From positions 62,001-126,000 of the forward strand of contig NZ_QPJM01000004.1 in NCBI RefSeq assembly GCF_003337575.1: a stretch of 64,000 nucleotides of DNA, read 5' to 3'. The DNA is from Phyllobacterium bourgognense. GTDB lineage: Bacteria; Pseudomonadota; Alphaproteobacteria; Rhizobiales; Rhizobiaceae. The notes under the pieces were generated by a model. The model ran no database searches. It was given only the letters and a program-made list of their open reading frames with translations, and was not told the DNA's origin. Shown here piece by piece: positions 1 through 13,240 of the stretch (position 1 is its first letter; the number at the start of each line of letters is the position of its first letter). The position numbers were made by a program, and so were the translations under genes.

Positions 1-689
1 AAGGCGCCGAGAGCGAGCAGGCCGCCACCTTCGCGATCATCATCATCCTCGTCGTCATAATCATCGTCTTCGGCCACGTGTCGAGTGGACTTCTTGGTGA
101 CCACCGGTTCGCTGTCGCGATAGGTGATGCCACTGGCAAAGCCAAATATCCAAAGGGTCGGGATGGCAAGAATGGCAACCATGATCATGGCAAGACCACC
201 ACGGGGGAAAGTGCCGATAAAGATGCCAGGTATTTTGAGGACCATATCACCAAAGACACCGCCAAGACCGATGGGCATGGGCCAGCTTTCAGGGATAGCG
301 AAGCATCCGGCGATCGCCGCAGCCAGAAGCGAGGCGCAAAGCCAGGCAACACTTCGGCGCATCATACGATCCACGCCGCGCCCAGTGAGAAAGAGCCCGC
401 CCCAGAAAAGCGCCGGCATCAGTGCCACGACCATGGAAAGACCAAAAAACTGCATGCCGAGATCGGCGAAGACCGCACCGGGATAACCGAGTGCATTGCG
501 GGTCGGATTCGACGTCGCATGACTGAAGCTTGGATCAAGCACGTTCCACGTAGCGAGGCTGCCGATAGCAAAGGCCACCAAACCGATAAGCCCCAGCCCC
601 CACAGGATATGAATCTGCCTGCGGAACAGGGTGGATAACCCGGTTCGCTGATCATCAATGGCATAGGAGGAAGGGTATCCCTGACGCAT
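1..689 (-). CDS. ftsK: DNA translocase FtsK, N-terminal part (cut by window edge)
   Basis: FtsK anchors in the septal membrane and pumps chromosomal DNA during division. Only about 229 N-terminal codons lie here; the motor domain is beyond the window. The minus-strand frame is open to the left edge and encodes a short cytoplasmic N-terminus, about four hydrophobic segments (for example ILWGLGLIGLVAFAIGSLAT), and then an acidic stretch rich in Asp/Glu near residues 212-225, as expected where the FtsK membrane domain passes into its linker. The ATG at 687-689 was chosen as start, but the frame stays open upstream without a better ATG, so the N-terminus is uncertain. Assignment rests on the membrane-domain pattern and on the amtB/glnK/tesB/ubiH neighbourhood, since no motor motif is visible. 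Confidence 0.78.
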   Translation of the reverse strand, partial: MRQGYPSSYAIDDQRTGLSTLFRRQIHILWGLGLIGLVAFAIGSLATWNVLDPSFSHATSNPTRNALGYPGAVFADLGMQFFGLSMVVALMPALFWGGLFLTGRGVDRMMRRSVAWLCASLLAAAIAGCFAIPESWPMPIGLGGVFGDMVLKIPGIFIGTFPRGGLAMIMVAILAIPTLWIFGFASGITYRDSEPVVTKKSTRHVAEDDDYDDEDDDDREGGGLLALGA

Positions 690-866
690 GAAATCCGGCC
701 CCGCGTGAACGCATACAGAGCAGCTGCGAGCAGCCGCCAATCCAAGAGTTGATTCTGACGTTACGGTGCGGATGGTTAAGGGGCCATTAACCATGGAAAG
801 GGCAGTCGAGGTATTTACCGAAAACGAAATTGAAATGTTGTAGCGGCTACGGTGACTTCGTGATCG

Positions 867-1250
867 TCAGGGATGTGCTTCTTGATCTACGTCTAACAGT
901 CGCTTGGCGAGATACTCAGCGAATTCGGCTCCAGAAGAAAATAGGATCCAGCTGACTGCCCCCACAATGTCGAACAAAGATATGACATACCTGTCGCCAT
1001 AACTGACACCCGCCATGAGCCCGGGTGTGCGAGCGATGTGGCGATCGTATATCTTCCAAACTTTTCGAGCTGTTCTACTCTTCACAACAATGAGAAGTGC
1101 CTTTGCCGTTTTATGGTACCAAGGCAGTGGCTTTTGCCGAATTGCCAGCAATCCAACCAAGGCCTTCCTTAGCGGTTTTCGAAGCGTTGGTGACAGCTCG
1201 GAACAAATTTGAAACGCAAGTTTGTCTTGTTCTTCAGCGGTTAGCGTCAT
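867..1250 (-). CDS. Hypothetical protein, 127 aa
   Basis: I do not recognise this protein. The start at 1250 is supported by an SD sequence GAGAGG about 4 nt upstream of the ATG; an earlier ATG 7 codons upstream has no such site. The sequence is basic in the middle, with one weakly hydrophobic stretch (residues 92-106) and no signal peptide. It lies between ftsK and the displaced amtB 3' end. Base composition is somewhat AT-richer than neighbouring core genes (28 G+C in the 60 bases at 1081-1140), which is compatible with recent acquisition but does not prove it. Confidence 0.6.
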   Translation of the reverse strand: MTLTAEEQDKLAFQICSELSPTLRKPLRKALVGLLAIRQKPLPWYHKTAKALLIVVKSRTARKVWKIYDRHIARTPGLMAGVSYGDRYVISLFDIVGAVSWILFSSGAEFAEYLAKRLLDVDQEAHP

Positions 1251-1380
1251 GTTACCTCTCCGGCGAAACAATACTCACTATCCATAAAGGAATGCTTGCA
1301 TTGTTCGGGAGCTGAGGGTTCCCGCAAATCGCAGGCGTCGCTGTTGGCACAAGGTTGCCGCTGGTGAGCCATGTCCGAAC

Positions 1381-1453
1381 AAAAAGGGCCCGGAAAACCG
1401 GGCCCTTCTGCTTCTTTTCAAGATTGTTCTATCAGCTGTGATACGCGGCTTCA
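1381..1453 (-). repeat. Displaced copy of amtB 3' end plus terminator
   Basis: This is a direct repeat of 2921-2993 at a fixed offset of 1540 bp. About 62 of the first 70 positions match. On the minus strand it still reads the last AmtB residues E-A-A-Y-H-S followed by TGA (stop at 1432-1434), with synonymous differences in the two Ala codons, and it includes a second copy of the terminator hairpin. The stop codon of the tetR gene abuts this remnant directly, so it marks the left junction of the tetR-SDR insert. Confidence 0.85.
1384..1407 (-). terminator. Rho-independent terminator downstream of tetR
   Basis: A perfect 10-bp stem (AAGGGCCCGG with its complement) closes a 4-nt loop. Read on the minus strand it runs into TTTTTG, so it should terminate tetR. 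The stem is identical to the amtB/SDR terminator at 2924-2947; only the loop differs. Confidence 0.8.
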
Positions 1454-1993
1454 CTTCGGGCTAATCCACTCACGCGTCTGCGCCAGCAGTTCATCAGACA
1501 AATGCGGGTCATCGCTCATCCGGGCCAAGATAACTGCACCCACCATCGCCGCCCAGCTCCCAATGGCGGCCCGGCGTTTGTTTTCTGCGGTTGCTCCAGG
1601 AGCCGAGCGGCTCAGGCGCTCGATGTGCTCTCGCAAGCCTGCCGTCATCGCTGCGCGGGCCTCTGGCGATTGATGGATGGTTTGGCCGGCCAGCCCCGCC
1701 GTTGGACATCCGCCGGCGATATCATCCCGGTGACTTTCCGAGAGGTACGTCGTCGCGTACCGCGTCAGATCGAGGTCCTCCGGTATCCCGGCTGAAACGA
1801 TGTGGGCCAGGGTTTGAACGATCAGGTCATCTTTCGAACTGAAATGCCCATAAAAAGCGCCGTGGGTGAGAGACGCCGCCTTCATGACATCCGCCACTGT
1901 CACCGCCTCGAACCCTTTGGCCCTGAAAAGCCTGCCAGCTGCCTCCAGGATCCTTTGCCGGTTTTCCGCGACTTGCTCCCGACTGACTTTCAT
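1451..1993 (-). CDS. TetR/AcrR family transcriptional regulator
   Basis: A 180-residue one-domain regulator. The N-terminal 50 residues form the TetR helix-turn-helix, with the typical pattern RQRILEAAGRLFRAKGFEAV followed by the recognition-helix region THGAFYGHFSSKDDL. The C-terminal part should be the ligand-binding and dimerisation domain. It is divergent from the short-chain dehydrogenase at 2096, with 102 bp between them that contain dyad symmetry, so it most likely represses that gene and itself. The last codons and the stop abut the displaced amtB tail, which places the gene inside an inserted segment. The ligand cannot be told from sequence. Confidence 0.9.
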   Translation of the reverse strand: MKVSREQVAENRQRILEAAGRLFRAKGFEAVTVADVMKAASLTHGAFYGHFSSKDDLIVQTLAHIVSAGIPEDLDLTRYATTYLSESHRDDIAGGCPTAGLAGQTIHQSPEARAAMTAGLREHIERLSRSAPGATAENKRRAAIGSWAAMVGAVILARMSDDPHLSDELLAQTREWISPK

Positions 1994-2018
1994 TCCGTCC
2001 TCGATTTCTCACTTGACT

Positions 2019-2071
2019 TTAATCATTACAGCGATCATGAATACACTAAACATGATGACGATCATGATTAA
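2019..2071. promoter_or_regulatory. Candidate TetR operator in the divergent intergenic region
   Basis: An imperfect dyad centred near 2045: TTAATCAT at 2019-2026 and ATCATG at 2034-2039 are mirrored by CATGAT at 2051-2056 and ATGATTAA at 2064-2071. A further ATCATGAT palindrome lies at 2061-2068. A possible -35 box TTGACT for the rightward gene is at 2013-2018. The position between a TetR gene and its divergent target is the usual place for an operator; binding is inferred. Confidence 0.5.
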
Positions 2072-2095
2072 TAATCCCAACTCAAGGAAAAAGCA

Positions 2096-2896
2096 ATGAA
2101 AGCCAAATCCACCGTCCTTATTACCGGAGCCTCCACTGGCATCGGTGCTGTTTATGCCGACCGTTTTGCCAAGCGAGGACATGACCTTGTATTGGTTGCT
2201 CGAGACCTGGCTCGACTGGAAGCGCTCAGCGAGCGGCTGCGCCGTGAAACCGGAGCCAATGTCGATATCCTTCAAGCCGATCTCACCGATGAGGTCGAGC
2301 TCGCCGGGGTGGAGTCGCGGGTGCGTGACGATGCGCGCATTGGCATACTGATCAACAATGCCGGCGCCAGCGCGGCCGGCGGCTTCGCCGATCAAACGCC
2401 GGACGACGTGGCCAAGCTCATCAGTCTCAACACGACTGCGCTGACACGGCTGGTCAGCGCTGTTACACCCCGTTTCGTCAAGGCTGGGGAAGGGTCGATC
2501 ATCAATATCGCCTCGGTTGTTGGATTGGCTCCTGAATTTGGTCTAACCGTCTACGGAGCGACAAAAGCATTTGTGCTGTTCCTCAGCCAGGGACTCCAGC
2601 TCGAACTTGGCCCAAAGGGAGTGTATGTCCAGGTAGTACTGCCCTCGGCGACGCGAACAGAGATCTGGGAGCGTTCAGGTCGGGATGTGAATACACTTCC
2701 GGCCGTGATGGAAGTAGACGAACTGGTCGACGCAGCACTAGTGGGCTTCGATCGTCGCGAGTCCGTGACTATTCCGCCGCTTCCGGATGCCGATCAATGG
2801 AAGGTTTTCGACGCGGCTCGACAGTCAATGATTCCGAATTACGCGCAGGTCCACGCTGCCGATCGTTATCAGCCCGAAAAAGCGCTCGCAAGTTAA
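2096..2896 (+). CDS. Short-chain dehydrogenase/reductase (SDR)
   Basis: A 266-residue NAD(P)-dependent classical SDR. The cofactor loop TGASTGIG is at residues 10-17, NNAG lies near residue 87, and the catalytic tyrosine and lysine are in YGATKAF in the middle of the protein, preceded by the serine region INIASVVGLAPE. The start ATG follows AAGGAAA by 7 nt. It is divergent from the TetR gene and probably under its control. Together they form a two-gene insert between amtB and a displaced amtB tail. The substrate is unknown; such TetR-SDR pairs are often linked to detoxification or secondary metabolism, which is only a guess here. Confidence 0.88.
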   Translation: MKAKSTVLITGASTGIGAVYADRFAKRGHDLVLVARDLARLEALSERLRRETGANVDILQADLTDEVELAGVESRVRDDARIGILINNAGASAAGGFADQTPDDVAKLISLNTTALTRLVSAVTPRFVKAGEGSIINIASVVGLAPEFGLTVYGATKAFVLFLSQGLQLELGPKGVYVQVVLPSATRTEIWERSGRDVNTLPAVMEVDELVDAALVGFDRRESVTIPPLPDADQWKVFDAARQSMIPNYAQVHAADRYQPEKALAS

Positions 2897-2920
2897 GGCA
2901 GCGCCAGGAGGCGTTTAAAC

Positions 2921-2993
2921 ACAAAGGGCCCGGTGAACCGGGCCCTTCTGGTTCTTTTCGAGATAGTTCTATCAGCTGTGATAGGCAGCTTCG
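2921..2993 (-). repeat. Native-position amtB 3' end repeated at 1381-1453
   Basis: This is the second member of the direct repeat, made of the amtB terminator and the last codons of intact amtB. See the copy at 1381-1453. The two repeats bracket the 1.5-kb tetR-SDR segment. Confidence 0.85.
2924..2947. terminator. Bidirectional terminator between SDR gene and amtB
   Basis: A 10-bp perfect stem (AAGGGCCCGG) with loop TGAA lies between two convergent genes. It is followed by TTCTGGTTCTTTT on the plus strand and by TTTGTGTTT on the minus strand, so it can serve both the SDR gene and amtB. Confidence 0.75.
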
Positions 2994-4396
2994 CCGTGCG
3001 AGGTGAGGTCGAGGCCTTCACGCTCTGATTCAGGCGATGCGCGCAGGCCGACGATCAGATCGACGATCTTGTAAAGGATCGCGCTACCGATACCGGACCA
3101 GAGCAGTGTCACGGCGACACCCTTGAACTGCGCCCAGAGCTGAGTCGCCGTACCTGCGTAGCTGGCGGCGAAGTCGGCAGTCGAATAATCAACGATGCCG
3201 GCACCACCCAGTGCAGGATTGACGAGGATGCCGGTACCAAGAGCACCGATGATACCACCGACGCAATGGATGCCGAAGACATCGAGGCTGTCATCATAGT
3301 CGAACGTGTTCTTCACCACTGCGACGAAGAAGTAGCAGACGACGGTGACGACCGCGCCGAGCACGATGGCTCCCATCGGACCGACAAAACCGGCAGCCGG
3401 GGTAACGGCAACCAGGCCGGCAACGGCGCCCGATACGGCACCGAGCATCGAAGCCTTACCACGCAGGAAGGATTCGAGGATGATCCACATCACCGCCGCA
3501 GCAGCTGTCGCGACGAAGGTGTTGATCATGGCAAGGCCCGCATAGGCATTGGCTTCGAGATTGGAACCGGCATTGAAGCCGAACCAGCCAACCCACAGCA
3601 ATGACGCACCGATCATGGTCATCGTCATGGAGTGCGGTGCCATGATGTCTTTCTTGTAGCCGGTACGCTTGCCGATCATCAGAGCGCCGACGAGACCTGC
3701 AATGCCGGCATTGATATGAACGACGGTACCACCGGCGAAGTCGATTGCGCCAAAGCCGAAGATCAGGCCCGACGGGTCGGAATAGGCACTTGGACCACCC
3801 CAGAACCAGACCATGTGAGCGATCGGGAAGTAAACGAAGGTGACCCAGAGAATAACGAACAGGATGACCGCCGAGAACTTCACGCGTTCAGCGAACGCAC
3901 CGACGATAAGCGCCGGCGTGATGCAGGCAAAGGTCATCTGGAAGACGACATAGACCAGCTCGGGGATGGCGACGCCCTTCGTGAAGGTTTCGGACATCGT
4001 CGTCACGTCGACGCCTTGCAAGAATGCCTTCGACAGGCCACCGACAAACGAATTGCCGGGTGTGAACGCCAGGCTATAGCCGTAGAACACCCAGATCAGC
4101 ATCACCACAGCGGTGATGGTGAAGACCTGCATGAGAACCGAAAGCATGTTCTTCGAGCGGACAAGACCGCCATAGAAAAGCGCGAGGCCGGGGATGGTCA
4201 TCAACAGCACAAGCACTGTCGAGATCATCATCCAGGTGGTGTCGCCCTTGTCGACTGTGAAGGCTGGCGCTGCGGCGGCGGGAGCTGCTGGCGCGGCCTC
4301 CTGAGCGAATGCGGCCAGCGTACCGATAGCGACCAGTGCGAGCGACCCGAGAAGGGTGCTGCGCGCCGCAGATGTCAGACTGGTTGGAATTTTCAT
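2972..4396 (-). CDS. amtB: Ammonium transporter AmtB
   Basis: An inner-membrane ammonium channel of the Amt/MEP/Rh family, 474 residues. An N-terminal hydrophobic signal-like segment (residues 12-31) and an Ala/Pro-rich stretch precede the channel core of about eleven membrane helices. The conserved Asp in FGAIDFAGGTVVHIN (near 219), the twin pore histidines (H227 and H377, the latter in DVFGIHCVGG) and the TFACITPALI segment are all present. The start at 4396 was preferred because AAGGAGA sits about 6 nt upstream; a longer in-frame ATG is 10 codons earlier. It lies 26 bp downstream of glnK and is almost certainly co-transcribed with it. GlnK would bind and block the channel in nitrogen-replete cells. 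Confidence 0.96.
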   Translation of the reverse strand: MKIPTSLTSAARSTLLGSLALVAIGTLAAFAQEAAPAAPAAAAPAFTVDKGDTTWMMISTVLVLLMTIPGLALFYGGLVRSKNMLSVLMQVFTITAVVMLIWVFYGYSLAFTPGNSFVGGLSKAFLQGVDVTTMSETFTKGVAIPELVYVVFQMTFACITPALIVGAFAERVKFSAVILFVILWVTFVYFPIAHMVWFWGGPSAYSDPSGLIFGFGAIDFAGGTVVHINAGIAGLVGALMIGKRTGYKKDIMAPHSMTMTMIGASLLWVGWFGFNAGSNLEANAYAGLAMINTFVATAAAAVMWIILESFLRGKASMLGAVSGAVAGLVAVTPAAGFVGPMGAIVLGAVVTVVCYFFVAVVKNTFDYDDSLDVFGIHCVGGIIGALGTGILVNPALGGAGIVDYSTADFAASYAGTATQLWAQFKGVAVTLLWSGIGSAILYKIVDLIVGLRASPESEREGLDLTSHGEAAYHS

Positions 4397-4422
4397 TATT
4401 GTCTCCTTGAACCCCAAATAAA

Positions 4423-4869
<447 letters not shown>

Positions 4870-4879
4870 CTAAGGAGTA

Positions 4880-4895
4880 TTCAAGTTCCATGCCA
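4880..4895 (-). promoter_or_regulatory. Sigma-54 type -24/-12 promoter for glnK-amtB
   Basis: On the minus strand TGGCATG-N4-TTGAA matches the sigma-54 consensus TGGCACG-N4-TTGCW except for the -12 C, with correct spacing. Transcription would start near 4869, about 108 bp before the glnK start codon. Confidence 0.6.
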
Positions 4896-4978
4896 GACTC
4901 GAAATATAACGCCAAGTTATTGATTATAAATGTATATTTTTAACAATTGGCAGCATGCCTGCGTGACTCTAAGCAACA

Positions 4979-4995
4979 TGCCTAAAATTTAGGCA
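4979..4995. promoter_or_regulatory. Candidate NtrC binding site (TGC-N11-GCA)
   Basis: A perfect 17-bp palindrome TGCCTAAAATTTAGGCA with TGC/GCA ends separated by 11 nt, the spacing of NtrC sites in alphaproteobacteria. It lies about 115 bp upstream of the inferred sigma-54 start, the usual enhancer distance. A weaker TGC-N10-GCA is next to it at about 4960-4975. Confidence 0.55.
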
Positions 4996-5017
4996 AACTC
5001 AATGGTCTTTAAAAACG

Positions 5018-5887
5018 TCACGCCTCGGAATGCACACGAATTAGGCCTTCCTGTGCTGTCGAGGCAATCAATATGCCATCACGGCTATAGATTGCACCAC
5101 GATTAAAGCCACGCGCTCCGGATGTACTGGGGCTGTCTGCCGTATAAAGCAGCCAATCGTCGAAACGGCAGGGACGATGAAACCACATGGCGTGGTCGAG
5201 ACTGGCGACCTGCAGGTCGCGATCGAAAATCGATCTCCCATGCGCATAGAGCGAGGTATCGAGCAGCGTCATGTCCGACAGGTAGGCCAGCACCGCCGCC
5301 TGCACGGCGCGATCATCCGGCACAGGACCTGTGGTCTTGATCCACACGTTCTGCTCGGGCGGCAGCTTCTCGCGCGAGAAATAATGGGCGAGCGACAGAG
5401 GCTTCATCTCGATGGGCCGGTCCTGCTCCCAGTACTTGCGGATAGCGGCAGGCGCATTCTGCAGATATTGCTCTTTCAGGTCGCGGTCGCTGATGAGATT
5501 TTCCGGTTCGGTGACGTCGAGCGGTTTGGGCTTTTGATGTTCAAGCCCCTCCTCCTCGATCTGGAAGGAGGCTTCCAGCGAAAAGATCGCGTGGCCGTGC
5601 TGGATACCGACAACGCGCCGCGTGGTGAAGCTCGAACCGTCGCGAATACGATCGACCTCGTAGATGATCGGCACTTTCGGATCGCCGGCGCGCATGAAAT
5701 AGCCGTGCAGCGAATGCACATGACGCAGAGGATCGACGGTGCGCTGTGCTGCGACCAATGCCTGGCCGATGACCTGGCCGCCGAAGACGCGTTGCCAGCC
5801 GGACTGCGGGCTGCGACCTCGAAACAGGTTGTGTTCAAGCATCTCAAGGTCGAGTATGGACAAAAGCTCATTCATGGCGTCAGACAT
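5018..5887 (-). CDS. tesB: Acyl-CoA thioesterase II
   Basis: A 289-residue TesB-type thioesterase with two hot-dog domains, hydrolysing medium and long acyl-CoA. Recognisable segments are the N-terminal LFRGRSPQSGWQRVFGGQV, the HSLHGYFMRAGDP block and the C-terminal SLDHAMWFHRPCRFDDWLLY with the catalytic Asp region and the closing GASRGFNRG-like motif. The start at 5887 follows GGGAGA; an upstream in-frame extension is Cys-rich and unlike the family. It is divergent from the ubiH-like gene with about 90 bp between them. Confidence 0.93.
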   Translation of the reverse strand: MSDAMNELLSILDLEMLEHNLFRGRSPQSGWQRVFGGQVIGQALVAAQRTVDPLRHVHSLHGYFMRAGDPKVPIIYEVDRIRDGSSFTTRRVVGIQHGHAIFSLEASFQIEEEGLEHQKPKPLDVTEPENLISDRDLKEQYLQNAPAAIRKYWEQDRPIEMKPLSLAHYFSREKLPPEQNVWIKTTGPVPDDRAVQAAVLAYLSDMTLLDTSLYAHGRSIFDRDLQVASLDHAMWFHRPCRFDDWLLYTADSPSTSGARGFNRGAIYSRDGILIASTAQEGLIRVHSEA

Positions 5888-5977
5888 GATCGAAGTCTCC
5901 CGTTCGCGCGTCCAACGCTTGCAACAGGAACAGCAGCACAAGTCAAGCGCCGCACAATTGCAACCCGGAGGCAAATC

Positions 5978-7207
5978 ATGGTTGAACGAAGCTCCCCGCA
6001 AGACATCACCATCGCCGGCGCAGGCTATGTCGGCCTTGCGACAGCGGTCGCGCTGAAATCATCGGCGCCGCACCTTGCCGTCACGGTTATCGACGCCGCG
6101 CCCGCCGGCGTCTGGCGTAACGATACGCGCGCGTCGGCTATCGCCGCCGCCGCAAGCCGCATGCTGGACCGCCTCGGATGCTGGGAGGCGATCCTTCCCG
6201 AAGCGCAACCCATTACCGAGATGATCGTCACCGATTCGCGCACGTCCGATCCCGTACGGCCGGTGTTCTTGACCTTCAACGGCGAAGTCGAGCCGGGCGA
6301 GCCGTTCGCGCATATGGTCGAGAACCGCGTCCTCAACGCATCGTTGCGCAAGAAGGCGGAAGAACTTGGCGTAACCTTCATCGAAGGCGCGCCGGTGAAC
6401 GGTTTCGAACATGGCGAGGCACATCTGACGGTCCGTTATTCAGATAACAAGAGCTTGCGCACCCGGCTGCTGATCGCGGCCGACGGCGTCAAATCCCGCC
6501 TGCGCGAGATGGCCGGCATCAAGGTCGTGAACTGGGAATACGGCCAGTCAGGCATCGTTTGCACCGTCACCCATGAGCGCCCGCATCATGGCCGGGCCGA
6601 GGAACACTTCTTGCCGGCAGGCCCCTTTGCGGTGCTGCCGCTCAAAGGAAACCGTTCATCGCTGGTCTGGACAGAACGGACCGCAGATGCAGAGCGCCTG
6701 ATCAACGAGGATGATTTCGTTTTTGAAGCCGAACTCGAACAACGCTTTGGCCTGAAACTCGGTGAAGTACACGTGGAAGGCGCGCGTAAAGCCTTTCCGC
6801 TCGGTCTTACGCTTGCTCGGGATTTCGTCAAGCCGCGCTTCGCGCTGGTGGGCGATGCAGCGCACGGCATCCACCCGATCGCCGGGCAAGGTCTCAATCT
6901 CGGCTTCAAAGATGCGGCAGCGTTGGCGGAAACCATCGTCGATGCCGATCGGCTCGGGCTCGACATCGGTTCGGTAGCGGTGCTCGAGCGCTACCAGACC
7001 TGGCGCCGCTTCGACACGGTGCAGATGGGCGTCACAACGGACGTTTTGAACCGGCTGTTTTCCAACGACAACGTACCGGTCCGGGCGCTGCGCGATTTCG
7101 GTCTCGGCCTTGTCGAACGGATGCCGCGGCTCAAGGGATTCTTCATCCGCCAGGCCGCGGGACTATCGACGACAGCGCCGAAACTGCTGCAGGGCCAGCC
7201 GATCTAG
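5978..7207 (+). CDS. ubiH: UbiH/UbiF/COQ6-family FAD hydroxylase (ubiquinone biosynthesis)
   Basis: A 409-residue flavoprotein monooxygenase, normally hydroxylating the ubiquinone ring. The dinucleotide motif GAGYVGLATA is at residues 14-23, the DGVKSRLREMAG motif is near 170, and the GDAAHGIHPIAGQGLNLG FAD/ribityl motif is near residue 292. The start ATG follows CCGGAGG; the same frame is open far upstream but that part is antisense to tesB. The exact ring position (UbiH, UbiF, UbiI or UbiL type) cannot be decided from sequence alone. Its stop TAG shares the palindrome CTAG with the stop of the convergent next gene. Confidence 0.88.
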   Translation: MVERSSPQDITIAGAGYVGLATAVALKSSAPHLAVTVIDAAPAGVWRNDTRASAIAAAASRMLDRLGCWEAILPEAQPITEMIVTDSRTSDPVRPVFLTFNGEVEPGEPFAHMVENRVLNASLRKKAEELGVTFIEGAPVNGFEHGEAHLTVRYSDNKSLRTRLLIAADGVKSRLREMAGIKVVNWEYGQSGIVCTVTHERPHHGRAEEHFLPAGPFAVLPLKGNRSSLVWTERTADAERLINEDDFVFEAELEQRFGLKLGEVHVEGARKAFPLGLTLARDFVKPRFALVGDAAHGIHPIAGQGLNLGFKDAAALAETIVDADRLGLDIGSVAVLERYQTWRRFDTVQMGVTTDVLNRLFSNDNVPVRALRDFGLGLVERMPRLKGFFIRQAAGLSTTAPKLLQGQPI

Positions 7208-8244
7208 AGCGGGCGTGGATATTTGCGGTAGATCGCGTTTATCTCCTTGAGGAGTTCCGGTGGCAGCGTGATCTGGCTTGCCCATATATCGGTCTTCAAC
7301 TGCTCCATTGATGTTGCACCGATGATAACCGAGGTCATGAACGGCCGCGTCAGCGCGAAAGCGATCGCCATCTGCGCCACATCGAGATTGTGCTTGCGGG
7401 CGAGTTCAATATAAGCGCGAACCGCAGGCGCGGAGTGTTCATTGTTGCGCCACAGACCGCCCGGCTGAATCGAGCCACGTGTGCCCGCCGGCGTTTTCCC
7501 GTCGAGATATTTGCCGGTCAGTACACCGGAAGCCAGCGACGAATAGGCGAGAAGGCCGACATCCTCATGATGGCTGAGTTCGGCAAGATCGAGATCGAAA
7601 ACGCGCTGGATAAGGCTGTATTCGTTCTGCACCGAAGCAACGCGGGGCAGATCGTGACGCTCGGAAAGCTTGAGCCATTGACCGATGCCCCAGGCCGTTT
7701 CGTTGGAAAGGCCGATGTGACGGATCTTGCCTTCCTTGACCATATCGCCAAGCCCTTGCAGAGCCTCTTCGATCTGGGCGACGACCTGCGACTTGTCCTG
7801 GTTCTGCGGCGCATACTGCCATGCGGTACCGAAATGATAATGACCGCGGGCGGCATAGTGGACCTGATAGAGATCGATATAGTCGGTCTGCAGACGCTTC
7901 AGACTGCCTTCCACCGCCTCACGCACGGTCTGGCGATCAGGTGGAGTTCCATTGCGGATCCAGCTATTGCCGCCGCCGGAAATCTTCGACGCCAATACGA
8001 ACTTGTCGCGCTTGCCGGTTTTCTTGAACCACGTGCCGATATAACTTTCGGTTTTGCCGTAGGTGTCCGCGCTCGACGGAATTGCATAGACTTCCGCCGT
8101 ATCCATGAAATTGATACCCGCATCCAGCGCATAGTCGATCTGGCTGTGTGCATCGGCTTCGGTGTTCTGTACGCCCCAGGTCATGGTGCCGAGGCAAATT
8201 TCAGTGACGACGATATCGGTCCTGCCGAGTTTCTTCAGTTTCAC
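7204..8244 (-). CDS. Aldo/keto reductase, Tas-like
   Basis: A 346-residue NADPH-dependent AKR of the Tas type. The catalytic Asp/Tyr pair is in FMDTAEVYAIP and the lysine in KFVLASKISG; the Tas-specific insertion with G-N-S-W-I-R-N-G-T follows. HIGLSNETAWGIG and the C-terminal SVIIGATSMEQLKTDI cofactor motif are clear. The start is GTG at 8242-8244 with AGGAAA 6 nt upstream. The stop codon overlaps that of the convergent ubiH-type gene in the shared sequence CTAG. The physiological substrate is unknown. Confidence 0.9.
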   Translation of the reverse strand: MKLKKLGRTDIVVTEICLGTMTWGVQNTEADAHSQIDYALDAGINFMDTAEVYAIPSSADTYGKTESYIGTWFKKTGKRDKFVLASKISGGGNSWIRNGTPPDRQTVREAVEGSLKRLQTDYIDLYQVHYAARGHYHFGTAWQYAPQNQDKSQVVAQIEEALQGLGDMVKEGKIRHIGLSNETAWGIGQWLKLSERHDLPRVASVQNEYSLIQRVFDLDLAELSHHEDVGLLAYSSLASGVLTGKYLDGKTPAGTRGSIQPGGLWRNNEHSAPAVRAYIELARKHNLDVAQMAIAFALTRPFMTSVIIGATSMEQLKTDIWASQITLPPELLKEINAIYRKYPRPL

Positions 8245-8271
8245 GGGATTTTCCTGTTTGATCTTGGTTGA

Positions 8272-8796
8272 TCAGTCGACTTGGAGGCCAAGCCTCTGCT
8301 TTAGCTTTCTGACACGCTGGCCGTAATGATGGGAGACAGGGACGGCAGCAGCGGCCGCCCCTACCATATCAATCAATTCGCACTTTTCCAGTTCGTTAAG
8401 CTGCTGGCGCAGAAACGGGGAGGTTTTTTCGATGACAGTTGCGGTATCGCCGACCTGGCTGAAAGCCCATTTCGCATAGATCATCGCCTCGTCCGCCTTT
8501 TTGGGACTGCTGATATGAAGGACCACACTCCTTACGGCATCGAAATGACCATCCGTAATCAGAGTATCTTCGGCGATGATCGCAAAGATCAATGTCGCTG
8601 CGGCAAGAACCGGGTCCTCAATCGCAGTCAGCGGCGAATGCTCTGCCTGCAAGCGTATTTTCCTGCGTCGGAAATATCCGCGCAGGCGCCCGGCGCCGTC
8701 TAGGACATCACCCGCCGCTTCATTCAGTATCTTCAACCTGTACCACCAGAAGAGGCCGCCGCCGAGGAGCCCGAGAACTGCCAGAATAATATGCAT
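8272..8796 (-). CDS. TerB-like membrane-anchored protein
   Basis: A 174-residue protein. Residues 3-20 form one membrane segment (IILAVLGLLGGGLFWWY), followed by a basic linker and an all-helical domain that looks like the TerB/DjlA N-terminal family: an ITDGHFDAVRSVV-type helix, then YAKWAFSQ, ending in a basic tail. It lies 27 bp upstream of the aldo-keto reductase in the same direction and may be co-transcribed. A tellurite role is not implied; the TerB-like assignment is tentative. Confidence 0.6.
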   Translation of the reverse strand: MHIILAVLGLLGGGLFWWYRLKILNEAAGDVLDGAGRLRGYFRRRKIRLQAEHSPLTAIEDPVLAAATLIFAIIAEDTLITDGHFDAVRSVVLHISSPKKADEAMIYAKWAFSQVGDTATVIEKTSPFLRQQLNELEKCELIDMVGAAAAAVPVSHHYGQRVRKLKQRLGLQVD

Positions 8797-8978
8797 GATT
8801 AAAATCCCCCTATGAAAAACTCCAGTTTAGAGGGAGGGAAATCGATCCGTAAATTAGGCGATGGAATAATACGGTGCCATGGATATGATACGGAACTATG
8901 CTAGCACGGAACCGTTATCGCCAAGCCTGATCACGGCGCACCACACGTCTTGCAATAACTTCAACGAGGGAGATAGAA

Positions 8979-9407
8979 ATGGACAGACAAGCAACAGCAA
9001 TCTGGAAAGGCGCGCTGAAAGATGGCCAAGGTACGCTCGACACCCAAAGCGGCGCGTTGAAAGGTCTTCCCTACAATTTCAAGGCCCGTTTCGAGGACGC
9101 AAGCGGCACTTCCGGTACCAATCCTGAGGAACTGCTAGGCGCAGCCCACGCGGGTTGTTTTGCCATGCAGCTTTCACACTTCCTTGCGGAGAACGGCACC
9201 CCGGCGGAAAAGCTCGAGGCAAAGGCGGTCGTGACGCTTGACCCGGCCAAGGGCGCGATCACCAAAAGCGCACTGACGCTGGTCGGCAATGTTCCGGGTA
9301 TCGACGCTGCGACTTTCAGTGAGCTTGCCAACAAAGCCAAGGCCAACTGCCCCGTGTCAAAGGCGCTCGGCGCGATCGAACTTACTCTGGATGCCAGGCT
9401 GGCTTGA
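8979..9407 (+). CDS. osmC: OsmC/Ohr family peroxiredoxin-like protein
   Basis: A 142-residue OsmC-type hydroperoxide reductase that reduces organic peroxides with thiols or dihydrolipoamide. Both redox cysteines are present: C60 in HAGCFAMQLS and C124 in KANCPVSKAL. The substrate-site segment TNPEELLGAAHAGC is canonical. The start ATG follows GAGGGAGATAGAA. The gene stands alone with a hairpin terminator behind it. Context fits stationary-phase or osmotic stress defence. Confidence 0.92.
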   Translation: MDRQATAIWKGALKDGQGTLDTQSGALKGLPYNFKARFEDASGTSGTNPEELLGAAHAGCFAMQLSHFLAENGTPAEKLEAKAVVTLDPAKGAITKSALTLVGNVPGIDAATFSELANKAKANCPVSKALGAIELTLDARLA

Positions 9408-9434
9408 TTGTCAGGCAGCCAACCGAATGATCTG

Positions 9435-9452
9435 CGGGCGCTCTGGCGCCCG
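9435..9452 (+). terminator. Terminator downstream of osmC
   Basis: A perfect 7-bp stem CGGGCGC/GCGCCCG with loop TCTG is followed by TTATTGTG. It starts 28 bp after the osmC stop. Confidence 0.6.
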
Positions 9453-9488
9453 TTATTGTGTATGGCGATAGGCCGGATCACTTAACTT

Positions 9489-9863
9489 ATGATTGCATCG
9501 CTCAAACAGTGGGCGCGGACTATCAAACGCGATGTCGTTGCGCTCTGGCTCGCCGCGCGTGATCCGCGTGTTCCGTGGTATGCGAAAGCAGTCGCCGGGG
9601 CCGTTGCCGCCTATGCTCTGAGTCCTATCGATCTTATACCGGACTTCATTCCGATCATCGGCTACCTGGACGATCTCATCATAGTACCGCTTGGCATCAT
9701 GCTGGCGGTCAAACTTGTGCCTGACGATCTCATGCAGGAACTCCGGGACGAGGCCACGCGCCGCGCCAGACCGGCGAGCAAGGAGGGGCTGATCTTTGTG
9801 GTGCTGGTCTGGACGCTGGCGGCTATCGCGTTGCTGTGGGTTTTCTGGCCGAATTCTGCCTAG
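9489..9863 (+). CDS. DUF1232 (YkvA family) membrane protein
   Basis: A 124-residue protein with the DUF1232 signature AYALSPIDLIPDFIPIIGYL followed by DDL near residues 41-64, and a C-terminal membrane segment (about 99-119). The function of the family is not known. The ATG has no strong SD. In the assumed ancestral order its 3' end would have faced the end of sdhB directly; now a displaced sdhB tail and an inserted gene lie between. A second, soluble-ended member of the family is at 57678. Confidence 0.85.
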   Translation: MIASLKQWARTIKRDVVALWLAARDPRVPWYAKAVAGAVAAYALSPIDLIPDFIPIIGYLDDLIIVPLGIMLAVKLVPDDLMQELRDEATRRARPASKEGLIFVVLVWTLAAIALLWVFWPNSA

Positions 9864-9884
9864 CTTCCTTCGGCGACCGCGGCG

Positions 9885-10064
9885 TCAAACCCGCCGCTCC
9901 ACCATCATCTTCTTGATCTCGGCGATTGCTTTGGCGGGATTAAGACCTTTCGGGCAAGCCTGCGCGCAGTTCATGATCGTATGGCAGCGATAGAGCCGGA
10001 ACGGATCTTCCAGATTGTCCAGACGCTCGCCCGTTGCTTCGTCGAGGCTGGTGCGCATAATCAT
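9885..10064 (-). pseudogene. Displaced 3' fragment of sdhB
   Basis: Bases 9885-10043 repeat the last 159 bp of sdhB (10565-10723) at an offset of 680 bp with 149/159 identities. All ten differences are synonymous third-base changes, so the 52 encoded residues and the stop are identical to the SdhB C-terminus, including the Cys cluster [14 protein letters not shown]. The frame continues upstream to ATG codons at 10058 and 10064 in unrelated sequence without an SD. A functional peptide is improbable; it reads as the displaced original 3' end of sdhB at an insertion junction. Confidence 0.85.
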
Positions 10065-10143
10065 GCACAGGCGACAGAGAGCAGGGTGCTTCAGGCAAAT
10101 GGACCGAACTCTCCAACCTCAAAGCTCGCCTGCAAAACCCATT

Positions 10144-10542
10144 CTATTGGTTCTCAGTTCCAAGATGGAAGACCACCTCGACATCTTTCCAATTTTCATA
10201 TTTTTCCGGAGGAAGTTTATACGGTGCAGCACGGAGTACGGAACGGCGAACGCTGGCAATTGCCGCTCTCTGCATCGCGGGCGGAGCCCCACTGGCAGAT
10301 ATGTTCAGTTGCCCTTCGATTTCGCCCTTTCGATCAAGATGAAATTTGACCGTCACGGTGAAATCTGGAGACGCGTCTAAATCCACAGGACGCGCCCAGT
10401 TAGATTCAATACTCCGTTGTATCTGACTCAGGATATTCTCTGAGGGGCCTGCCGATGCTTGCGAAGGGCCCGCTACAACTGTGAAAATCATGATTGATGA
10501 GAAAATACTGACCTTGCCAAAAACTCTATCAAAATAGCGCAA
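10144..10542 (-). CDS. Exported free-standing TolA/TonB C-terminal-type domain protein
   Basis: A 132-residue protein. The start is TTG with GGAG about 8 nt upstream. Residues 1-31 look like a cleavable signal peptide ending near SQASA-GP. The rest resembles the C-terminal domain of TolA/TonB: a helix SENILSQIQRSIESNW, then P-x-x-FTVTVKFHLDRKGEIEG, and a PYKLPPEKYENWKDVEVVF ending. Normal TonB/TolA have an uncleaved anchor and long spacer, both absent here. The gene is clearly AT-richer than its neighbours (24 G+C in the 60 bases at 10141-10200). It lies between intact sdhB and the displaced sdhB tail, so it is an insert. The role is unknown. Confidence 0.75.
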   Translation of the reverse strand: MRYFDRVFGKVSIFSSIMIFTVVAGPSQASAGPSENILSQIQRSIESNWARPVDLDASPDFTVTVKFHLDRKGEIEGQLNISASGAPPAMQRAAIASVRRSVLRAAPYKLPPEKYENWKDVEVVFHLGTENQ

Positions 10543-10564
10543 AATATAAGCTCCTACGTTAAAA

Positions 10565-11344
10565 TCAAACCCGGCGCTCCACCATCATCTTCTTGATTTC
10601 GGCAATTGCCTTGGCAGGGTTAAGACCCTTCGGGCAAGCCTGCGCGCAGTTCATGATCGTGTGGCAGCGATAGAGCCGGAAAGGGTCTTCCAGATTGTCC
10701 AGACGCTCGCCCGTTGCTTCGTCACGGCTATCGATCAGCCAGCGATAGGCTTGGAGCAGAACAGCCGGGCCGAGATAGCGATCACCATTCCACCAGTAGC
10801 TTGGGCATGAGGTCGAGCAGCAGGCGCACAGGATGCACTCGTAAAGGCCATCGAGCTTGGCGCGGTCCTCGTGACTCTGCAGCCATTCCTTGGCCGGCTC
10901 AGGTGAGACCGTCTTCAGCCACGGCTCGATCGAACGATGCTGCGCGTAGAAATTGGAGAGGTCCGGCACCAGATCCTTGACGACGGGCAGATGCGGCAGC
11001 GGATAGATCTTCACAGCGCCCTTGATCTCGTCCATGCCCTTGGTGCAGGCGAGCGTATTGGTGCCATCGATGTTCATGGCGCAGGAGCCGCAAATGCCCT
11101 CACGGCACGACCGGCGCAATGTCAGTGTCGGATCGATCTTGTTCTTGATCCACAACAGACCATCGAGCACCATGGGCCCGCAGTCATCCAGATCGACATA
11201 ATAGGTATCGATACGCGGATTTTCGCCATCGTCCGGCGACCAGCGGTAAATCCGGTACTCGCGCAGATTGTTTGCGCCCTGCGGACGATCCCATGTCTTG
11301 CCGGGACGCATCTGCGAGTTCTTGGGAAGTGCAAGTTCAACCAT
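10565..11344 (-). CDS. sdhB: Succinate dehydrogenase iron-sulfur subunit
   Basis: A 259-residue SdhB carrying electrons from the flavoprotein to ubiquinone. The [2Fe-2S] ligands are in [10 protein letters not shown] and NTLAC; the [4Fe-4S] and [3Fe-4S] ligands are in [11 protein letters not shown] and [14 protein letters not shown]. The ATG follows AGGATATT. It is the last gene of sdhCDAB. The last 159 bp are repeated at 9885-10043, so the 3' end may be a recombinant replacement. Confidence 0.97.
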
Positions 11345-11373
11345 AATATCCTGGTCTCTCTATTTGTTCTGTC

Positions 11374-11420
11374 GCAACCCCTGACGGAAAACCGGTACCC
11401 ACTTTTCCCGGGATTGCTTT
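11374..11420. repeat. Dispersed palindromic element, copy A (sdhA-sdhB spacer)
   Basis: A 47-bp unit running from GCAACCCCTGACGG to CGGGATTGC, with outer arms GCAA...TTGC and an inner GGAAAA/TTTTCC pairing. It closely resembles the element at 17199-17242 and a repeat type common between genes in Hyphomicrobiales. It lies in the 75-bp gap between sdhA and sdhB, overlapping the last base of sdhA. Confidence 0.65.
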
Positions 11421-13240
11421 TAGTACACACGCGCTTTCGGCGCGATCTTGGCGAGGCTGATGCCGCCATCCTCTTCCTTGAGCAGCGGCTCGAGGTGAAC
11501 AGGACGATAACCCAGCGTGACCTTTCCATCCGGCGCCAGCCAGGCAAGGCTGTGCTTGCGCCAGTTGACATCATCGCGGTTGGGGAAATCCTCGTGCGCA
11601 TGGGCGCCGCGGCTTTCCTTGCGCGCCTCGGCGGCAACGACTGTGGTGATGGCATTGGCCATGAGGTTTTCGAGTTCGAGCGTTTCCACCAGATCGGAAT
11701 TCCAGATCATCGAACGATCCGTAACTTTCACATCCGGTAGCTCGTTCCAGATCTGCTCCATGCGGTTCACGCCCGACTTCAGCGATTCCGAAGTGCGGAA
11801 CACTGCCGCATCTTCCTGCATGGTCTTTTGCATCTTTTCGCGCAACGCAGCGGTCGGAATTCCGCCATTGGCATGACGCAGGCGGTCGAAGCGATCCATG
11901 ATCTTCGTGACCGAAGCCTCATTGATGTCCGGGATCTTGGCGTTACGGTCGATTACCTGTCCGGCGCGGATCGCAGCGGCACGACCGAACACCACAAGGT
12001 CGATCAGCGAATTGGAGCCGAGACGATTGGCGCCATGCACCGAGGCGCAACCCGCCTCGCCCACAGCCATCAGACCGGGCTGGATCCGGTCCGGATCTTC
12101 CTTGGTCGGATTGAGCGCTTCACCCCAATAATTGGTCGGGATGCCCCCCATATTGTAGTGAACCGTCGGAATGACCGGGATCGGCTCCTTGGTGAGATCG
12201 ACGCCGGCAAAAATCTTCGCCGATTCCGAAATGCCTGGCAGCCGCTCGTGCAGGACGGCCGGATCGAGGTGATCAAGATGCAGGAAGATGTGATCCTTGT
12301 TCTTGCCGACGCCGCGCCCTTCGCGGATCTCCAGCGTCATGCAGCGTGAAACCACGTCGCGCGACGCCAGATCCTTGGCGGAGGGTGCATAGCGCTCCAT
12401 GAAACGCTCGCCTTCAGAATTGACGAGGTAACCGCCCTCGCCGCGCGCACCTTCCGTGATCAGACAGCCGGCGCCATAAATACCAGTCGGGTGGAACTGG
12501 ACGAATTCCATGTCCTGCAAGGGCAAACCCGTGCGCGCAACCATGCCGCCGCCATCGCCGGTGCAGGTATGCGCCGACGTTGCGGAGAAGTATGAGCGGC
12601 CATAGCCGCCCGTTGCCATAACCACCATCTTGGCGGCAAAGCGGTGGATCGTGCCATCGTCGAGGTTCCAGGCGACAACGCCGGTGATAGTGCCCTCTTC
12701 ATCCTGGATGAGATCGAGCGCGAAATACTCGATGAAGAACTGCGCATTGTGGCGCAGGCTCTGACCATAGAGCGTGTGCAGGATGGCGTGGCCTGTGCGA
12801 TCGGCCGCCGCGCAGGTGCGCTGCACCGGCGGACCATCGCCATAATTCATCATGTGGCCGCCGAAGGGGCGCTGGTAGATCTTGCCCTCTTCGGTGCGCG
12901 AGAACGGCACGCCGTAGTGTTCGAGCTCGTAGACGGCGGCCGGCGCTTCCCGCACCAGATATTCCATGGCGTCCGTATCGCCAAGCCAGTCCGAACCCTT
13001 GACGGTGTCATACATGTGCCACTGCCAGGAATCGGCACCCATATTGCTAAGCGAGGCAGCGATGCCGCCCTGCGCTGCAACCGTATGTGAGCGGGTGGGG
13101 AAAACCTTGGTAATGCAGGCTGTCTTCAGGCCCTGCTCCGCCATGCCGAGCGTGGCGCGCAGGCCCGCGCCACCCGCGCCGACGACGACCACATCGAACT
13201 TGTGGTCGACGAACTTATAGGCTTTATCTGTTGGTGCCAT
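11420..13240 (-). CDS. sdhA: Succinate dehydrogenase flavoprotein subunit
   Basis: A 606-residue catalytic subunit oxidising succinate to fumarate. The FAD motif [17 protein letters not shown] is at the N-terminus; the histidine for covalent FAD is in [11 protein letters not shown]; substrate-site residues lie in [21 protein letters not shown] and in the [13 protein letters not shown] region. The start at 13240 ([10 protein letters not shown]) fits homologues; an upstream in-frame ATG overlaps sdhD. The gene lies 8 bp from sdhD. Confidence 0.97.

Follow-up and report, generated by a model that had tools for sequence, protein, structure and literature searches.

Extra genes and a displaced copy of the core-gene 3′ end behind amtB and sdhB of Phyllobacterium bourgognense

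The window analysed here is a stretch of 64,000 nucleotides (nt) from Phyllobacterium bourgognense (contig NZ_QPJM01000004.1, positions 62,001 to 126,000), which carries the housekeeping genes amtB, encoding an ammonium transporter, and sdhB. Beside each of the two, the genome has acquired extra genes along with an additional copy of the core gene's 3′ end; this is a genuine observation. One-sided homologous recombination with a relative's DNA, completed by an illegitimate second joint, is the probable source of the gain in both cases. The two loci are a natural record of the addition of one or two genes behind housekeeping genes with no recognisable mobile element and with the target unbroken. 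Moreover, sorting the differences in a displaced gene end by codon position can separate recombination with a relative from duplication.

Results

Layout of the two loci

The longest direct repeats returned by a repeat search of window positions 1-13000 were one of 165 nt at 93% identity and one of 75 nt at 89%, the third-ranking family measuring only 27 nt. They correspond to the 3′ ends of sdhB (attached copy 10565-10729, displaced copy 9885-10049, minus strand) and of amtB (attached 2918-2992, displaced 1378-1452, minus strand). A first-pass annotation of this DNA had described two inserts of one architecture, in which a core gene is followed by an insert and then by its own displaced 3′ end, and the two repeats bear this out. 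Both target genes are indeed intact, as it had also proposed, with complete products of 484 (amtB) and 259 (sdhB) amino acids (aa). Its further claim that neither insert carries a recombinase stands for the genes that could be identified: none of the three (tetR, a short-chain dehydrogenase (SDR) gene and a TonB_C-like gene) is a recombinase by Pfam, and the Pfam search gave no family at E<=0.1 for 10 of 13 further insert-overlapping open reading frames (ORFs) of at least 60 aa.

Both repeats have two copies each at E<1e-5 in the scanned stretches (1.59 Mb) of the genome of the window (5.6 Mb, here G000), and therefore neither tail is a dispersed repeat in those stretches. Relatives were drawn from 20 Phyllobacterium genomes, G000 included, and the syntenic 12-17 kb were taken from the other 19. 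Other genomes and fetched loci carry G and L numbers, respectively; the named species are P. brassicacearum (G001), P. calauticae (G002), P. endophyticum (G004), Phyllobacterium sp. 2063 (G006), Candidatus P. onerii (G009) and P. trifolii CECT 7015 (G017).

The sdhB locus

The features of this locus are:

10565..11344, minus strand: sdhB, intact, 259 aa, with a full-length match in each of the 20 Phyllobacterium genomes
10565-10729, minus strand: attached sdhB tail, the last 165 nt of the gene
10050..10564, minus strand: insert, 515 nt between the sdhB stop and the displaced tail
10144..10542, minus strand: small protein of 132 aa resembling TonB_C / the TolA C-terminus (Pfam PF03544)
9885..10049, minus strand: displaced 3′ end of the resident sdhB, with an open frame up to the stop, unlike the attached copy at 12 of 165 nt
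9489..9863, plus strand: DUF1232 gene, also a neighbour of sdhB in G003, G017 and G019

The match of the small protein to PF03544 (E 2.7e-4, 21.8 bits) lies under the family cut-off of 24.6. The insert has a GC content of 48.9%, against 58.3% for sdhB. In three sister species (G003, G017 and G019) the sdhB site is empty of the insert. The 60 nt behind the displaced tail are homologous to the sequence directly behind sdhB in these three species, and the sequence that follows the attached copy is not. The displaced tail is therefore the original end, still in its original position, and the TonB_C gene is the newcomer.

The attached and displaced copies were compared by codon position over the last 160 nt, leaving out the first 5 nt at the joint, which hold one second-position difference. 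All 11 differences fall at third codon positions, in keeping with the first-pass statement that differences would be mainly synonymous, and four of these sites are private to the displaced copy within its clade. Under free change about one-third of differences would be expected at third positions, which gives (1/3)^4 = 0.012 for the private sites alone and 6e-6 for all 11. Since copies that were once identical would be expected to differ at all positions, this pattern argues that two diverged, functional sdhB alleles met, which is not predicted by duplication. The mosaic affinities of the locus agree with the codon test: G019 comes closest over the displaced tail and its flank (tiles 9376-9876; 94.0-95.9%, against 78-94% for the others), whereas the attached sdhB is on average nearest to G003 and farthest from G019. 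Likelihood placement of the 160-nt tail favoured G019 as the sister.

The gap between sdhB and osmC holds one or more genes in nine of the 20 species, as follows:

G000: DUF1232 and TonB_C genes
G003, G017 and G019: DUF1232 gene
G005, G013 and G012: genes for proteins of 238, 274 and 196 aa, respectively
G011 and G006: TonB_C gene

A displaced sdhB tail is found in the gap only in G000. The gene order sdhB-TonB_C occurs in congeners: G011 has no tail copy but does have a TonB_C relative (45-46% identity) directly behind sdhB and in the same orientation, and in G006 a degenerate TonB_C gene lies behind sdhB.

The amtB locus

The features of this locus are:

2972..4426, minus strand: amtB (ammonium transporter), intact, 484 aa
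2918..2992, minus strand: attached amtB 3′ end with a terminator-like hairpin
2096..2896, plus strand: insert gene for an SDR of 266 aa (Pfam adh_short, E 9.5e-45)
1451..1993, minus strand: insert gene for a TetR-family regulator of 180 aa, its last codons replaced and its stop TGA inside the displaced amtB tail
1378..1452, minus strand: displaced amtB 3′ end with a terminator-like hairpin, directly behind tetR, with the same junction in G009, G017 and G019

The displaced tail and the SDR-tetR pair are found behind amtB in four species (G000, G009, G017 and G019), with one shared junction. In all four the TetR C-terminus reads ...WISPK and is followed by TGA within the amtB tail. The nearest tetR relatives, at other loci, have unlike ends and lengths of 189 aa (L126) and 184 aa (L127). 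As the more distant relatives among those listed range from 179 to 190 aa, the end of this TetR protein is more safely called replaced than shortened. The replacement goes back to one event in an ancestor. A divergent SDR gene is present in 75 of the 80 loci fetched, and amtB in two of them, those of P. trifolii and Candidatus P. onerii. At the DNA level the SDR-tetR pair has a match in 54 of 199 family genomes and is at most 69% alike outside G000.

The motif GCACGG near the joint is common to the tetR genes of relatives and to amtB, and is possibly a microhomology at the tetR-amtB joint. The displaced amtB codons GCC GCG are synonymous to the GCT GCC of G000, G017, G019 and G003 and identical to those of the attached amtB of G009. 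The amtB repeat comprises only 21-25 coding nt plus ~54 nt with the terminator, so that 'displaced gene end' is a thin description for this locus.

The sdhB case is unique to G000 among the 20 species, whereas the amtB junction is common to four; the two cases are therefore different in age, the amtB case being the older, and do not stem from a single burst. Their occurrence within 10 kb of each other is presumably a coincidence in two variable slots.

Recurrence in the genome and in the family

A tail test was applied to 1557 ORFs in 28% of G000 (1.59 of 5.6 Mb). Five tail-like matches were obtained, two of them credible (amtB and sdhB). The other three were rejected, two as members of repeats with 46 copies and with three copies (the latter in a doubtful ORF of 117 aa), and the third, with four copies, because the gene in which it lies resembles a tandem paralog by eye. 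A mirror control, in which gene starts repeated upstream were sought, gave nine rows from seven ORFs, and the six ORFs checked had 19-51 copies each. A general, repeated route of gene gain, as put forward in the first-pass annotation, is accordingly not supported in the scanned part of G000, which holds no credible case beyond amtB and sdhB.

In the wider family a 54-aa sdhB tail was searched in 394 genomes and matched in 381. Two tail matches were found in 14 of the 394; in seven of these, G000 included, the second tail follows sdhB at a short distance in the same orientation, and in the other seven it is on another contig. With a 30-aa tail query a second match was gained in G162 and G264. 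The control gene acnA had two matches in three of the 394 genomes (G283, G150 and G395), the second match of G283 being a full-length paralog, so that nearby extra tails number seven for sdhB and at most two for acnA, a comparison that is suggestive only. Recurrence holds for one gene end, that of sdhB, across the family (7 of 394 genomes); in the sdhB-osmC gap of Phyllobacterium, eight of the nine gene-bearing species have no displaced tail.

In G233, which belongs to another genus, sdhB is followed by a gene of 216 aa and then by a displaced tail of 331 nt (L331 1275-3518). The cargo protein has no Pfam match. The tail has 23 differences, 18 of them at third positions, and an internal stop; the stop and several missense changes lie in its upstream part, and the last 90 nt differ only at third positions. 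For the sequence downstream of this tail no clean match to an empty site was obtained; in G286 the neighbour gene lies ~770 nt behind sdhB. G233 represents an independent tail swap at sdhB, of the same architecture and with other cargo and another tail length. The crossover position at sdhB is not constant between the two cargo cases compared (-165 in G000, -331 in G233).

Short extra sdhB tails

Five family genomes (G200, G026 and G130, of one genus, G127 and G313; loci L332, L333, L335, L334 and L336) have an extra tail 63-169 nt behind the sdhB stop. These copies begin at nt 690/691 of 780, with an internal ATG, and hold the last 29 residues complete to the stop; 26 of their 27 differing codons are synonymous. 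A hairpin lies upstream of the extra tail in all five, that of G130 folding less clearly, and the spacer hairpins behind sdhB have no match in Rfam, which returned two chance-level matches elsewhere in the loci. In G127 there is also a tandem duplication of ~259 nt. The same K-to-L change is present in both sdhB copies of G130, and gene conversion between copies is therefore likely. The five short copies could reflect either an exchange of diverged alleles with gene conversion, as in G130, or a mini-ORF under selection, and the extra copy is perhaps a retained mini-ORF of 29 codons.

Phage, plasmid and viral collections

A blastn search of phages returned one weak record. When the SdhB tail was compared by tblastn with 50,697 phage records, five matched, at 44-64% identity. 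Two of these are annotated as sdhB, one of them beside sdhA and sucA, and two are short records without annotation. Phage C48C1 (Kyanoviridae) carries a 235-aa gene annotated as hypothetical (L358 958-1665), with an SdhB-like C-terminus (63.5% over 52 aa), which is possibly a phage-borne SdhB relative. In IMG/VR, 15 contigs match the SdhB tail, and 14 of them hold a full or nearly full SdhB; the match in the fifteenth (L357 1-110) begins inside the sdhB 3′ end, at the contig edge. A crude scan of these 15 loci for recombinase motifs gave nothing. Among plasmids, 58 records match by blastn, and the 20 listed cover 35-39% of the query, as sdhB tails alone would. The phage, plasmid and IMG/VR collections yielded no recognisable integrating element that carries an sdhB tail, the two short phage records being undecided.

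Discussion

Recombination with DNA of a relative and its alternatives

In one-sided recombination of the kind proposed here, the incoming DNA would carry the core gene's 3′ end and, behind it, the cargo. Its end would pair with the resident gene end, leaving the core gene whole with a (partly) incoming end, and its other end would be joined illegitimately inside the 3′ region of the resident gene, so that the resident end is left displaced behind the cargo. The illegitimate joint is often formed at a few shared bases. Two published routes would lead to the same product: homology-facilitated illegitimate recombination (HFIR) of linear DNA, or a fragment end-joined into a circle followed by a single crossover. 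That sdhB and amtB are both complete means that one junction lies within homology. A relative as the donor and this order of steps are presumed. The donor-type order is found for sdhB-TonB_C in G011 and G006, although the G011 protein is only 45-46% alike, and none was found for amtB-SDR.

Several results weigh against this explanation. In the likelihood placement, the two G000 copies as sisters are not rejected (delta logL 2.3, approximately unbiased (AU) test p 0.37). At amtB the tail has too few coding bases for the codon test, GCACGG is altered in the present tetR-amtB joint, and the relatives with SDR-tetR next to amtB all have the displaced tail too, the pair lying elsewhere in others. 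No donor was found: nothing in the other 19 Phyllobacterium genomes matches the DNA of the sdhB insert at E<=0.001 (best 0.0049), and none of the plasmid or phage records reaches 80% coverage of the region by blastn. HFIR is also rare: in E. coli conjugation its reported frequency per recipient cell is 3x10^-10 (PMC3240628), and for other species it is put orders of magnitude lower than normal recombination (PMC5361080).

The same layout would arise, with no homology to the cargo, by partial tandem duplication or by insertion with a long target-site duplication, in which a break with long overhangs is filled around captured DNA and the copies are identical at the start. Such an origin would suit amtB, where the relatives' cargo lies at another locus, and the tail tree does not reject it. 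It is nevertheless unlikely. An unconstrained displaced sdhB copy should change at all positions, and because outside the joint all 11 differences are at third positions, a long target-site duplication fits worse. Partial tandem duplication, which the first-pass annotation had raised against its own proposal, is contradicted by the same codon pattern and by the nature of the insert: a plain duplication cannot put foreign sequence between the copies, and what lies between them (the TonB_C insert) is of a different family from what lies behind the second copy (the DUF1232 flank) and is absent in the sister species.

The 3′ ends of genes are the usual targets of integrases, and elements bearing a synonymous copy of a gene end are known. 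On this basis the inserts could be cis-mobilizable remnants between attL and attR, integrated site-specifically at a gene end (attB) by a tyrosine recombinase acting in trans; the repeated hits on the sdhB end in several genera and the one left boundary common to the five short cases would be in line with this. Site-specific integration is, however, quite unlikely. The boundaries of the cargo cases differ, at about -25 (amtB), -165 (sdhB of G000) and -331 (sdhB of G233), and a fixed-site recombinase therefore fits worse; moreover, the identified insert genes include no recombinase. Five of the 50,697 phage records match the SdhB tail, two being annotated sdhB, two unannotated and undecided, and one matching as the end of a 235-aa gene, and of the 15 viral contigs 14 hold a full or nearly full SdhB and the last is cut by the contig start. 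Of the two mechanisms offered in the first-pass annotation, a trans-acting tyrosine recombinase is thus the poorer fit and recombination with DNA from a relative the better one, given tails of ~25, 165 and 331 nt and no recognised integrating element in the collections searched.

A further alternative is that displaced tails, whatever their origin, are retained through use, either as a translated mini-ORF or as a 3′ processing or terminator module. The five short copies, with their internal ATG, their integrity to the stop and their 26 synonymous codons among 27, are compatible with this, as are the last 90 nt in G000 and G233, which differ only at third positions although the upstream part of the G233 copy is degraded. 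Synonymous differences would also be brought by an incoming diverged functional allele, though, and gene conversion is likely from the K-to-L change in both G130 copies. By eye there is no strong ribosome-binding site in the 25 nt before the ATG. Retention through use is accordingly very improbable. In a broader and speculative form, to which little probability is given, the sdhB 3′ end would be a recurrent recombination target in the family, its displaced last 29 codons being kept as a translated mini-gene, often behind a hairpin, for a C-terminal SdhB peptide that contains cysteine and might tune the assembly of SdhB; the G000 and G233 insertions would then have arisen as side effects of this target. 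Whether recombination leftovers become mini-genes can be tested on the recurring sdhB copies.

Relation to known systems

The recombination mechanism favoured here is already in print; the setting, housekeeping genes, is different. In the C-terminal displacement described for rhs genes, an intact gene likewise gains a new end, while its former end, together with a core fragment whose length varies, is moved downstream; the authors propose that a circular intermediate recombines by a single crossover (Jackson et al., 2009; PMC2935791). In that account, however, the C-terminus of rhs itself changes, whereas the gene gained here is unrelated, lies behind the core gene and leaves its protein unchanged, and the core regions within an E. 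coli rhs locus are described as identical, whereas the copies here have diverged (PMC2935791). Insertion of type VI effector-immunity modules in Vibrio cholerae is similar in its upstream homology anchor, its illegitimate second joint and the shifting back of the old 3′ part, and its authors suggest a mechanism akin to HFIR; the loci treated there are effector-immunity loci and not housekeeping genes (PMC5361080). HFIR and the end-joined single crossover, as reported for E. coli conjugation, are routes that would give the order core gene, insert, displaced end, although that system used laboratory constructs and HFIR was very rare in it (PMC3240628). The small variable segments described between bacterial genomes are also short, and illegitimate recombination is predicted by their authors as the pre-eminent mechanism (PMC2884548). 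Of those segments, 10-18% are given as flanked by direct repeats, 66-94% of which are under 30 bp, whereas the repeats here are longer and diverged, and most loci in that survey are neither insertions nor deletions (PMC2884548).

Other sequence at the amtB and sdhB slots

In G003 the slot behind amtB is occupied by genes for the mobile mystery proteins A and B (TIGR02612 and TIGR02613; L047 2099-3141), with no tail copy detectable there. A second type of amtB, 67.6-68.8% identical to that of the window, is found at the same place in G002, G005, G007, G008 and G012-G015, the amtB of the remaining species being at least 92% identical to it. By eye, a repeated stretch with the core GTTCGACAAGCTCACCAT was seen behind sdhB or amtB in G001, G006, G007, G009 and G015, and a variant of it in G016.

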